A stretch of 50,779 bases of DNA. Origin: Gammaproteobacteria bacterium. Its GTDB lineage: Bacteria > Pseudomonadota > Gammaproteobacteria > Natronospirales > JAJUFS01. The position numbers were made by a program, and so were the translations under genes. Positions within the stretch are counted from its first letter, which is position 1. Each line of letters starts with the position of its first letter. Shown in pieces: positions 30,718 to 35,336 of the stretch. Under the pieces are notes generated by a model. That model was not told the origin of the DNA. It worked only from the letters and a program-made list of their open reading frames with translations, and did not search any database. Location: the NCBI GenBank assembly GCA_033720895.1, contig JAWWBS010000008.1, positions 1 to 50,779 on the forward strand, written 5' to 3'.

Positions 30718-30746
30718 GCACGGAAAACAGCCCATTGGAGTGTTTT

Positions 30747-31565
30747 GTGAGCGATAGCCAGTCCAGACAGGGTCTTGCGGCAGCCGAGCGCATTCGCGTG
30801 GTGCTGGTCGAGACCAGTCATCCCGGCAATATCGGTGCCGCAGCCCGCGCCATGAAAGTCATGGGACTGGGTGCCTTGCACCTGGTGAAGCCCTGGCATT
30901 TCCCCTCGGATGAAGCCTCCGATCGTGCCTCGGGCGCGGACGACATCCTCGCGAAGGCCACGGTGCACGAGGACCTGGCGTCGGCGGTGGCGGATTGCCA
31001 CCTGGTGCTGGGCACATCCGCACGCCTGCGTTCCATCCAGTGGGAGCAGCTCGATCCCCGCCAGGCAGGCGAACGGCTGGTCGAGGCGACGGGCGCCGGG
31101 CAGGTAGCCGTTGTATTCGGGCGGGAGAAATCCGGGCTCAGCAATGAAGAGCTCGACCTGTGCACCCACCTGGTTCACATCCCGGCCAACCCCGAGTACT
31201 CCTCGCTGAACCTCGGTGCGGCGGTGCAGGTGCTTGCCTACGAGCTGCGGATGGCGATGCTGGCCAGCAAGGTGCCGGTGCAGGAGCCGGACTTTCCGCC
31301 TGCCAGCCACGAGGACATGGAACGGCTCTACCACCACCTGCGCAACGTGCTGGCTCGACGTGATTTCCTCAAGCGTCACAACCCGGAGCACCTGATGCGG
31401 CGCTTCCGTGCGCTGTTCGGACGGGCCGGGCTGGATACCAATGAAGTCCAGATCCTGCGCGGCATGCTGCGCGCCTTTGCACCGGAGGTCGATCCCAAGG
31501 GACCGCTGCCCGAGGTGGACAAATCCTTGTTCGAGAAAGCGAGTCACGGCGACGAGCAGGAGTAG
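30747..31565 (+). CDS. trmJ: tRNA (Cm32/Um32) methyltransferase TrmJ
   Basis: 2'-O-methylates position 32 of tRNA anticodon loops. The 272 residues are a SPOUT-class methyltransferase with the knot motifs VLVETSHPGNIGAAARAMKV, VVFGREKSGLSNEEL and IPANPEYSSLNLGAAVQVL, plus a C-terminal extension. The GTG start is preceded by GGAG at 6 nt; an in-frame TTG 12 nt upstream overlaps this site and is less likely. In related genomes trmJ sits directly before the isc operon, as here. Confidence 0.95.
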   Translation: MSDSQSRQGLAAAERIRVVLVETSHPGNIGAAARAMKVMGLGALHLVKPWHFPSDEASDRASGADDILAKATVHEDLASAVADCHLVLGTSARLRSIQWEQLDPRQAGERLVEATGAGQVAVVFGREKSGLSNEELDLCTHLVHIPANPEYSSLNLGAAVQVLAYELRMAMLASKVPVQEPDFPPASHEDMERLYHHLRNVLARRDFLKRHNPEHLMRRFRALFGRAGLDTNEVQILRGMLRAFAPEVDPKGPLPEVDKSLFEKASHGDEQE

Positions 31566-31574
31566 AATGGACGA

Positions 31575-32741
31575 ATGATCTACTTCGACCACAACGCGAC
31601 GACGGCCGTGCTACCCGAGGTGCGGGAGGCCATGTTGCCCATGCTGGGCGGGAATTTTGGCAATCCTTCCAGCATCCATGCCCCAGGCCGCCTGGCGCGC
31701 AATGCGCTCGATGATGCCCGCGGCGCTGTTGCCGAGCTTGCCGGCGTGCATCCACGCCAGGTGGTGTTCACCAGCGGTGGCACGGAATCGAATGCGCTGG
31801 CACTGCGCGGCGTGGCCTTGCAGGCGCTGGCGACTGGCGCTGCGCGCCGCCGCCTGCTGGTTGGCAGCACCGAGCACGCAGCGGTGCGCGACGAGGCCTT
31901 CGCCCTGCGGCGGCTCGGATTCACCGTCGAGGAAGTTCCCGTGGCTGCCGACGGTCATATCGACCTGCCTGCCTACCGGTCCCTGCTCGATGATGAGGTC
32001 CTGCTGGTGTCACTGATGGCTGCCAACAACGAGACCGGCGTGCTGACCGACATCGCGCCATTGGCGGAGCTCGCCCACGCCGCGGGTGCCGTGTTCCATT
32101 GCGATGCCGTGCAACTGCCGGGCAAGCAGCCGTTCAGCATGGCCGAGCTGGGTGCCGACCTGGCGTCGATCTCCGGCCACAAGATCGGTGCGCCGAAGGG
32201 CGTGGGTGCCTTGTTGCTGGCTGGCGCCGTCGAGCTCTTTGCCGGCCAGCATGGCGGAGGACAGGAAGCCGGCTTGCGTTCGGGCACGGAAAACCTGCCG
32301 GGCATCGTGGGCTTCGGCGTTGCGGCGACACACGCGGTCGCAAGCCAGGCGGAATTTTCGACGCACACCCGCCAGTTGCGTGACCAGCTCGAGCGAGGCC
32401 TCGCGGCGATTCCCGGCATCACCCTCTTTGCCGCGGCCAGCGAGCGCCTCCCGAATACCTGCCAGTTCGGCGTCGCCGGCTATGCCGGCGATACCGTGCA
32501 GATGGGGCTGGACCGTGCGGGATTTGCGGTCTCGACCGGCTCGGCCTGCCATTCCGGTGACAGCGCGCCGAGTCACGTGCTGACCGCCATGGGCGTGCCG
32601 CCGGATGCCGCGCGCAGCGCGATCCGCGTGACCTTTGGCCTCGACAATACGCATGAACAAGTGAACGAATTTCTTGGTGCCCTGGAAAACCTCCGGGGCG
32701 CCTTGCCGAGTCAGTCCGCGGGTGGGGCTGTCGGCTGGTAG
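31575..32741 (+). CDS. Cysteine desulfurase, NifS/IscS-like (first copy)
   Basis: PLP enzyme that moves sulfur from cysteine to a catalytic cysteine persulfide. The 388 residues contain His101 (STEHAAV), the PLP lysine K203 (SGHKIGAPKGVG), HGGGQEAGLRSGTEN, and catalytic C325 in STGSACHSGDSAPSHVL on a long group I loop. It differs clearly from the neighbouring IscS (HGGGHERG there, HGGGQEAG here) and resembles generic NifS-type desulfurases. It occupies the place where iscR normally stands. RBS and start lie 9 nt after trmJ. The client is unknown: it could feed Fe-S assembly, thiouridine or thiamine synthesis. Confidence 0.9.
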   Translation: MIYFDHNATTAVLPEVREAMLPMLGGNFGNPSSIHAPGRLARNALDDARGAVAELAGVHPRQVVFTSGGTESNALALRGVALQALATGAARRRLLVGSTEHAAVRDEAFALRRLGFTVEEVPVAADGHIDLPAYRSLLDDEVLLVSLMAANNETGVLTDIAPLAELAHAAGAVFHCDAVQLPGKQPFSMAELGADLASISGHKIGAPKGVGALLLAGAVELFAGQHGGGQEAGLRSGTENLPGIVGFGVAATHAVASQAEFSTHTRQLRDQLERGLAAIPGITLFAAASERLPNTCQFGVAGYAGDTVQMGLDRAGFAVSTGSACHSGDSAPSHVLTAMGVPPDAARSAIRVTFGLDNTHEQVNEFLGALENLRGALPSQSAGGAVGW

Positions 32742-32779: not shown

Positions 32780-33964
32780 ATGAATGCTGGCAGTGGAGAA
32801 ATGATTTACCTGGATTACGCGGCGACCACACCGGTCGATCCGCGGGTGGCGGAGGTCATGATGACATTCCTGACCCCGGCCGGTGTGTTTGCGAACCCGG
32901 CCTCGACCGGCCATGCCGCGGGCCGCGAAGCAGCCGAGGCCGTTGCGCAGGCGCGCGCCGAAGCCGCCGCCGCCTTGCATACCCGCCCCGAGAACCTGGT
33001 CTTTACCTCCGGCGCCACTGAAAGCGACAACTTGGCGATCAAGGGCATTGCCCGGGCGAGCCGTCGCGGCAAGCACATCGTGACCGACAAGACCTCGCAC
33101 AAGGCCGTGATCGATGCCTGCAAGGCGCTCGAAAAGGAGGGCTTCGAGGTCAGCTGGCTGGTGCCTGAAGCCGAAGGCCGCATCACGCCTGAGCAGTTGC
33201 GGACCGCACTGCGGGAGGACACGGCACTGGTCGCCTTGCTGCACGCGAACAACGAGACCGGCGTGGTCAATGACATCGCGGAGCTGGGCGCGGTCTGTCG
33301 CGAAGCGGGTGTCCCGTTCCACGTCGATGCCGCCCAGTCTGCCGGCAAGCTGCCGCTGAATCTCGATGAATTGCCGATCGATACCCTGGCGGCTAGCGGC
33401 CACAAGTTCTACGGGCCCAAGGGCATCGGCATCCTCTACGTCCGCCCGGGCTTCGGGCCGGTCGAGGCCCAGCAGCACGGTGGCGGCCACGAGCGCGGAC
33501 TTCGCTCCGGAACCTTGCCGACCCACCAGATCGTGGGCCTCAGCCGTGCGCTGGCACTGGCAGTCGAGGACCAGCTCGCCGAGGCCGAGAGGCTGGTCGG
33601 GCTGCGTGAGCAGCTCTGGCAGGGACTGGCAACGCTGGGCGGGGTACACCGCAATGCGCCGGCCGAGCACAGCCTGCCGGGCGTGTTGAACGTCAGTTTC
33701 GAGGGCGTCGATGGTGAATCCCTGCAGTTTGCCTTGCCGGCGCTGGCCGTGTCCGCGGGTTCGGCCTGCAATTCCGCCAGCCGTGAGCCCTCGTTCGTGC
33801 TCAGGGCCCTGGGCCGGTCTGATCGCCTGGCGGGCGCCAGCCTGCGCTTCAGCCTGGGGCGCTGGACCAGCGAACAGGACGTGGAACGCGCCGTGGAACT
33901 GGTCACGGAGGCAGTGAGCAAGCTGCGCGCGGTGGCCGGGGCCCTGCTGGCGCAAGGCGACTGA
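32780..33964 (+). CDS. iscS: Cysteine desulfurase IscS lacking the C-terminal IscU-binding tail
   Basis: Supplies persulfide sulfur for Fe-S clusters and tRNA thiolation. The 394 residues follow E. coli IscS closely: IYLDYAATTPVDPRVAE, K209 in SGHKFYGPKG, HGGGHERGLRSGTLPTHQIV, and catalytic C330 in SAGSACNSASREPSFVLRAL. The last helix reads VTEAVSKLRAVAGALLAQGD and stops; the roughly 15-residue tail of E. coli IscS (LWEMYKEGVDLNSIEWAHH), which contacts IscU, is absent. An alternative ATG at 32801 (MIYLDY) has GGAG close by and would match the E. coli start better. Its downstream partner is a degenerate IscU. Confidence 0.93.
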   Translation: MNAGSGEMIYLDYAATTPVDPRVAEVMMTFLTPAGVFANPASTGHAAGREAAEAVAQARAEAAAALHTRPENLVFTSGATESDNLAIKGIARASRRGKHIVTDKTSHKAVIDACKALEKEGFEVSWLVPEAEGRITPEQLRTALREDTALVALLHANNETGVVNDIAELGAVCREAGVPFHVDAAQSAGKLPLNLDELPIDTLAASGHKFYGPKGIGILYVRPGFGPVEAQQHGGGHERGLRSGTLPTHQIVGLSRALALAVEDQLAEAERLVGLREQLWQGLATLGGVHRNAPAEHSLPGVLNVSFEGVDGESLQFALPALAVSAGSACNSASREPSFVLRALGRSDRLAGASLRFSLGRWTSEQDVERAVELVTEAVSKLRAVAGALLAQGD

Positions 33965-34002: not shown

Positions 34003-34407
34003 ATGAACGGCCCTGTACTGAATGATTATGGCCCAGAAGTGGCCCGACGCTTTGCCGAACCGCGGTTCTCGGGATCGCTGCCGGGCGCTGTGGCCGTTAC
34101 CCTGCGTTCCCGCGCCAGGGACGCTGAAATCTGTTTCCAGGCCCTTGTCGACGATCGCAAGCGACTGAAAAGACTGAGATTTCAGGCGATAGGCTGTCCC
34201 CACCTGGTGGCGGCTGCGGACCTGCTTGCCGAGCGCCTGGAGGGGGCTGCCGTGGTGGATTTGCAGGATTTCCGGGCAGGTTTCCTGGAGACCGAGCTGC
34301 CCTTGCCGGCCGAGAAGCTGGACTTGAAAATACTGCTGGAAGACGCCATCAAGGCTCTGTACCAGGCCATTTTGAACGAATCGCATCCCGAGGAAATCGC
34401 ATCGTGA
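34003..34407 (+). CDS. Degenerate IscU-like scaffold protein
   Basis: Recognisable IscU/NifU-N homologue of normal length (134 residues; E. coli IscU 128). [20 protein letters not shown] aligns with FKTYGC63GSAIASS and [11 protein letters not shown] with SILAEDAIKAA. Of the cluster ligands only C65 (equivalent to C63) remains. A gapless alignment puts R39 at C37, A41 at D39, D107 at H105 and L108 at C106. The HscA recognition motif LPPVK reads LPAEK. No frameshift is visible and the frame runs cleanly into iscA (4-nt overlap). It is therefore unlikely to hold a normal 2Fe-2S cluster. It may be a regulator or adaptor of desulfurases, or a decaying gene; I cannot tell. Confidence 0.8.
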
Positions 34408-34724
34408 TCACCCTGACCGAACAAGCTGCTGCCCACGTCCGGAACCACCTGGAAAAGCGTGGCAAGGGGCTTGGCCTGCGCCTGGGCGTGCGCAAGACCG
34501 GCTGCTCCGGCTGGGCCTATGACCTTGGTTTTGCTGATGAAATCAGGGAAGGCGAACAGACTTTCGAAAGCCAGGGCCTGACGGTCGTGGTGCCGGAAGA
34601 CGCGCTGACTTTCGTGGACGGCACCGAGGTGGACTACATCTCGGAGGGCCTGAACCAGATGTTCAAATTCCGCAATCCCAACGTCAAGGACGAGTGCGGC
34701 TGCGGCGAAAGCTTCACGGTCTGA
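34404..34724 (+). CDS. iscA: A-type Fe-S carrier IscA
   Basis: Iron or Fe-S cluster carrier. The 106 residues contain all three conserved cysteines, C34 in [10 protein letters not shown] and C98/C100 in DECGCGES, and [20 protein letters not shown] is close to E. coli IscA. The GTG start overlaps the stop of the IscU-like gene (GTGA). The gene that usually follows, hscB, is absent; ndk comes next after 183 nt. Confidence 0.93.
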
Positions 34725-34907: not shown

Positions 34908-35336
34908 ATGGCAGTTGAACGGACCCTTTCCATCATCAAGCCGGATGGCGTTGCAAAGAACATCATCGGTGACATCTACAGCCGCTTCGAGAAGGCCGGC
35001 CTGAAGGTGGTCGCCGCCAAGATGGTGCACCTGAGCAAGGAGCAGGCTGGCGAATTCTACGCGGTTCACAAGGAGCGTCCGTTCTACAACGACCTCGTTG
35101 GTTTCATGACCTCGGGTCCTGTCATGGTGCAGTGCCTGGAAGGCGAAGACGCCATTGCGAAGAATCGCGACCTGATGGGTGCGACCAACCCGGCCGAGGC
35201 CGAGGCTGGCACCATCCGCGCAGATTTCGCCAAGACCGTTGACGAGAACGTCGTGCACGGTTCGGATGCGCCGGAAACCGCCGCGGAAGAGATCAAGTTC
35301 TTCTTCCCGGAAGGCGTGTGCGAGCGCACGCGATAA
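34908..35336 (+). CDS. ndk: Nucleoside diphosphate kinase
   Basis: Balances nucleoside triphosphate pools by phosphate transfer from ATP. The 142 residues are full length, with [14 protein letters not shown] at the N-terminus and the phosphorylated histidine H117 in NVVHGSD. A longer upstream reading frame exists, but GGAG before ATG 34908 and the conserved [13 protein letters not shown] fix the start. It stands between the isc genes and rlmN as in other gammaproteobacteria. Confidence 0.97.

Follow-up and report, generated by a model that had tools for sequence, protein, structure and literature searches.

Which function maintains an IscU-like gene whose product has lost most of the residues that bind an iron-sulfur cluster? 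This question is raised by a locus in the window, i.e. the complete stretch of 50,779 nt that was analysed. We use the label IscU* for the ligand-less IscU-fold protein encoded there and for its homologues.

An IscU-fold protein in a shortened isc operon

The iscU* gene (34003–34407, + strand) is an intact open reading frame of 134 aa, running from ATG to TGA. Its product matches the Pfam family NifU_N (PF01592) with an E value of 6.7e-9 and 36.4 bits (cut-off 22), placing it within this superfamily, and the closest proteins of known structure by sequence are IscU/ISCU. The scores against the equivalog models are below the respective cut-offs, i.e. 35.1 bits for IscU (TIGR01999, cut-off 192.4) and 14.2 bits for SufU (cut-off 92.5). 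The window protein and ten homologues served as input for an AlphaFold (AF2) model with a pLDDT of 86.3 and a pTM of 0.80. The nearest PDB structure is 3lvl_A (TM 0.82/0.88, rmsd 1.5), which is IscU from the E. coli IscS-IscU crystal complex. According to the predicted structure, IscU* is an IscU-fold protein of the NifU_N superfamily, in line with a preliminary description of the locus, which had claimed a full-length, in-frame IscU-like protein.

The gene order in the window is secF, suhB (opposite strand), trmJ, iscS1, iscS2, iscU*, iscA, ndk, rlmN, pilF, rodZ, hisS, and yfgM, with names of the neighbours assigned by similarity and position. Over the part that was compared, suhB-trmJ-isc, it matches the E. 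coli isc neighbourhood. As in E. coli, the ancestral isc slot is marked upstream by the tRNA methyltransferase gene trmJ (30735–31565, + strand). It is followed by iscS1 (31575–32741, +), encoding a second, NifS/DndA-like cysteine desulfurase of 388 aa, and by iscS2 (32780–33964, +), encoding an IscS-type cysteine desulfurase of 394 aa in which Cys, Lys, and His of the active site are retained. The distance from iscS1 to iscS2 is 38 bases, as is that from iscS2 to iscU*. The iscA gene (34404–34724, +) encodes an A-type carrier whose three cysteines (C34, C98, C100) are all present, and its start overlaps the end of iscU* by 4 bases (GTGA). The downstream marker ndk (34908–35336, +) comes directly after iscA because hscB-hscA-fdx-iscX are gone; iscR is likewise missing from the isc slot of the window. 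The locus, earlier designated the “isc locus”, thus does not contain the complete isc operon. A search of the source genome did not find HscB, and it revealed a canonical SufU gene beside sufS, with intact cysteines, as well as a SufB gene. PADLOC matched the two desulfurases of the window to the defence proteins SspA/DndA, which we put down to the shared ancestry of cysteine desulfurases.

Loss of the cluster ligands in the window protein

The alignment comprised IscU*, IscU of E. coli, and 42 canonical IscU proteins. The columns of E. coli C37, D39, C63, H105, and C106 are occupied by R39, A41, C65, D107, and L108 in IscU*, while they read CDCHC in 42 of 42 canonical proteins. Realignment did not restore the missing ligands. 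The losses and the retention of C65, both proposed earlier, were confirmed. The same applies to the change of the LPPVK motif to LPAEK and to the conservation of LLEDAIKAL. The protein had also been called a one-cysteine IscU, which is incorrect as a literal count, since it contains two cysteines, C44 and C65. Only C65 is at a ligand position; C44 falls in the column of K42 of E. coli IscU. K105, the equivalent of E. coli K103, is retained within the altered LPAEK motif, and the exchange K103E abolishes IscS binding of E. coli IscU (PMC2854127).

Of the features that define an IscU scaffold, IscU* thus shares the position of its gene within the isc slot, flanked by iscS and iscA. It lacks the set of three cluster cysteines together with D39 and H105, and the combination of LPPVK with HscB/HscA is replaced by LPAEK, the genome-wide absence of HscB, and the absence of hscA at the locus. 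The zinc/persulfide cysteines typical of SufU are also not present, because the ligand columns are missing.

Distribution and variability of IscU*

At least one NifU_N protein was found in 19 of 19 genomes of the Natronospirales, the order to which the source genome is assigned through its named relatives. In 18 of 18 relatives within this order a ligand-less IscU* is encoded in the same slot, full-length in all genomes examined, and the locus throughout the order is trmJ-iscS1-iscS2-iscU*-iscA-ndk, without hscB-hscA-fdx-iscX. For the class, an IscU*-type profile was run over 342 genomes and compared with the Pfam search. Selecting genomes with a best match that was strong by the IscU* profile and non-canonical by Pfam yielded 36 genomes, including one of the Natronospirales (G003), to which two genomes found earlier (G042 and G047) were added. 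Similar proteins thereby occur in 37 genomes of the class outside the Natronospirales, and in about 28 gammaproteobacterial families in all, in a set that was picked by score and is not a census. The slot is the same wherever the contig permits its recognition, and the ligand losses vary. With the single window protein as query, a search of the genome contigs gave no match. A canonical IscU elsewhere together with absence of the gene from sister genomes, which had been named as an argument against a retained function, was not observed; a canonical SufU does exist elsewhere in the source genome, and none of the sister genomes examined lacks iscU*.

The comparison of the ligand columns, which the preliminary description had suggested, covered 56 homologues. 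C37 is kept in 0, C63 in 28, and C106 in 10 of the 56 proteins; all three are missing in 25, and two contain no cysteine of any kind. Within the Natronospirales, C63 persists in families f1, f2, and f4 and in one genome of f3; GCP or GC is kept in f1, f2, f4, and genome G009. Three of the four f3 genomes (L068, L070, L142) carry G or S in place of C63. C37 is missing from family f66, and one member of this family is without C63 as well. L128 lacks both C37 and D39, and other homologues are devoid of any ligand. H105-C106 is kept in some homologues (f66, L128, L131). At the K103 column, 48% of the homologues have K, and 66% have one of the two residues K and R. New preferences throughout the family are F11, P64, and A107, and E111-D112-A113 is conserved.

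These values bear on the possibility that C65 acts as a persulfide acceptor, i.e. that in this lineage it takes sulfur from the active-site cysteine of IscS2 and passes it on, like SufU, SufE, or TusA. The retained GCP or GC motifs would fit, as would a disulfide between C63 of E. coli IscU and C328 of IscS (Kato 2002, as cited in PMC2854127) and the finding that TusA is only weakly detectable in the source genome and missing from many genomes with IscU*. Such a role cannot be the general function, however, because 28 of 56 homologues lack C63, including the three of the same order that have kept the gene, and two lack cysteines altogether; in addition, C37, the proposed first acceptor (PMC2854127), is never kept. 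Transfer via C65, one of the roles suggested earlier, is thus conceivable in this lineage and, overall, we regard it as unlikely. As C37 is always lost, C63 is kept in half of the proteins, and two have no cysteine, the alignments indicate that neither scaffolding nor thiol relay can be the general function of the IscU* family.

Purifying selection

The pairwise dN/dS values for IscU* range from about 0.1 to 0.57 and are mostly between 0.15 and 0.35. The lowest values were obtained where dS was high, and for several pairs no value could be computed. All are well under 1, whereas values near 1 would characterize a pseudogene. Together with the conserved fold and gene order this agrees with the earlier claim of constraint rather than decay. 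IscU* is not a pseudogene, and it is not peculiar to a single genome.

Could the gene nevertheless be a non-essential leftover of the isc operon that decays slowly, or that is maintained solely because its translation is coupled to that of iscA? The graded ligand losses among lineages, the 4-base overlap with iscA, and the fast divergence of IscU* are compatible with this. Yet the full-length protein is encoded in all examined Natronospirales genomes as well as in many families, the dN/dS values are low, the IscU fold is conserved, new residue preferences have arisen beside the conserved E111-D112-A113, and in-frame fusions to IscS exist (see below). A relic is therefore quite improbable.

Association with SUF and absence of HscB

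HscB was detected in 0 of 51 genomes with IscU*, but in 29 of 29 genomes with canonical IscU. Conversely, 50 of 51 and 5 of 29 genomes, respectively, have a match to the SufB model; these counts include SufD-like genes, and the genomes are related, so that neither the HscB nor the SufB counts are independent. The single IscU* genome without a match to the SufB model, G041, has no match to SUFBD_core either. In two further genomes, G042 and G249, the only match is SufD-like or partial, probably due to contig breaks. It was already known that ISC and SUF exclude each other in Gammaproteobacteria (PMC10631705). The ligand loss and the lack of HscB in 51 of 51 genomes give good support to the non-scaffold role that had been proposed.

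A different metal site would be another way to explain the retention of C65, which is at a ligand position, with D107 in place of H105; a cluster or zinc would then be bound by C65 and new residues, perhaps between two copies of IscU*. The H105-C106 pairs of f66, L128, and L131 could be seen in this light. Nevertheless, the alignment of the 56 homologues contains no set of potential ligands that is conserved, HscB is absent from all IscU* genomes tested, and SufU and SUFBD genes are present, making such a site highly improbable.

Family f81 contains intact as well as reduced forms of the operon. Genome G095 (L172) has the complete order trmJ-iscR-iscS1-iscS-iscU-iscA-hscB-hscA-fdx-iscX-ndk, while G206 (L138) has iscR-iscS1-iscS-iscU*-iscA-ndk. 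In a quick IscS tree with several long branches, all IscS proteins linked to IscU* are on one side of one branch (support 88). One label change is sufficient on this tree, and we do not claim many independent origins. The loci suggest that the isc operon persists in part after a takeover by SUF, with IscS, IscA, and the ligand-less IscU staying together. A counterpart of iscS1 is also present inside the intact operon of G095, and iscS1 is probably an old member of the isc operon.

IscS as the candidate partner

The IscS proteins encoded beside IscU* have retained H104, K206, and C328 in 51 of 51 cases, and thus have an intact active site. W401 is kept in only 5 of 51, compared to 34 of 34 canonical loci, and the canonical C-terminal tail is usually lost or replaced. 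IscS2 of the window lacks this tail (about residues 388–404 of E. coli IscS), which includes part of the IscU-binding segment of the E. coli enzyme. Several contact residues are changed on both sides (V40, K59, T60, and G64 of IscU; I314, M315, and E347 of IscS). Tail loss and changed contacts imply that the interface between IscS and IscU* has at least been remodelled. Whether IscS-contact residues are better preserved than ligands gave a mixed outcome, and this comparison was dropped as main evidence.

W45, which is a TusA contact in E. coli IscS, is replaced by R in IscS2 and, like the tail, is usually lost in IscS of IscU* loci. TusA was found at strong scores in 28 of 29 genomes with canonical IscU and in about 17 of 51 genomes with IscU*. 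A simple scenario of TusA loss was not adopted, because the presence of TusA does not track C63.

In two cases IscS and IscU* are fused in frame, each being a single case in a draft genome. One open reading frame comprises IscS-IscU* (G340, L133, 6053–7660, − strand), and another of about 790 codons comprises TrmJ-IscS-IscU* (G041, L160, 5323–7704, − strand). The latter may be the most telling example of a dedicated IscS partner. The genome that carries it has no match to SUFBD_core, HscB, or NifU_N.

To quantify co-variation, distances were compared for 20 loci against a background of HisS, TrmJ, and Ndk. The partial correlation between IscU* and IscS was 0.61 (permutation p 0.0005). The values were 0.25 (p 0.07) for IscA and 0.44 for the HisS control.

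On balance, IscU* is probably a pseudo-scaffold that docks on IscS2 and modulates its activity after the takeover by SUF. IscU*, descended in place from the IscU of the isc operon, would have stopped building clusters once SUF (here SufBCD with SufS-SufU) took over, and would have been retained through continued docking on the desulfurase. By occupying or shaping the IscU site of IscS2, it could tune the activity or set the destination of the persulfide, e.g. tRNA thiolation and other non-cluster uses. We infer the docking from the fusions, the correlated evolution, and the retention of K105, and with it a putative effect on IscS2 activity, in one direction or the other, and a putative client pathway. 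Counting against docking are the remodelled interface, the variable K103 column, the weaker correlation that HisS also shows, and the occurrence of each fusion in one draft genome. A docking modulator is favoured because the homologues share the fold and a genetic, sometimes covalent, bond with IscS, but not cysteine chemistry, and because IscU and TusA of E. coli compete for IscS, with IscU changing the activity of the enzyme (PMC11302665). Among the roles proposed earlier, that of an IscS adaptor or modulator agrees best with the fusions, the fixed adjacency, and the correlated evolution. More broadly, scaffold-dead IscU proteins could quite possibly form an undescribed, widespread class of dedicated IscS partners or regulators in SUF-dependent Gammaproteobacteria, directing persulfide to tRNA thiolation or other purposes besides cluster assembly.

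Comparison with known proteins

IscU* resembles E. coli IscU and human ISCU in its fold and in the slot between iscS and iscA, and it shares the aromatic residues at positions 3 and 11, G62, E111-D112-A113, and, in the window protein, K103. Unlike IscU, it lacks C37, D39, H105, and C106, has an altered LPPVK, and occurs in a genome without HscB. SufU, the zinc-dependent persulfide carrier of SufS, also belongs to the NifU_N superfamily and works beside a cysteine desulfurase; however, the source genome has a separate SufU beside SufS, and IscU* is far below the SufU cut-off. SufE and CsdE are single-cysteine persulfide acceptors with an IscU-like fold in published structures. IscU* would resemble them in the fold and in one candidate cysteine, but no sequence match was found and the candidate cysteine is not conserved in IscU*. 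With IscX and CyaY, IscU* would by analogy share only the proposed mode, i.e. that binding to IscS changes the output without cluster building; they are unrelated proteins that bind to a different site of IscS (PMC2854127). A description of a ligand-less IscU was not found in the literature searched, whose coverage excluded most subscription journals.

The loci point to a separation of the scaffold function of IscU from a second, non-cluster function, most likely on IscS. IscU* proteins would thus be natural separation-of-function variants for studying how IscU controls sulfur flow, which is an open question in E. coli (PMC11302665). For genome annotation, this means that a similarity-based label of “IscU” or “scaffold” may be attached to proteins that are not scaffolds, and counting these would overstate the number of genomes with ISC. 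A 93-residue fragment in one 1.0 Mb genome (G175; L155, 6076–6357, + strand) is a repeat of the C-terminal part of the IscU* encoded at L137 of the same genome.
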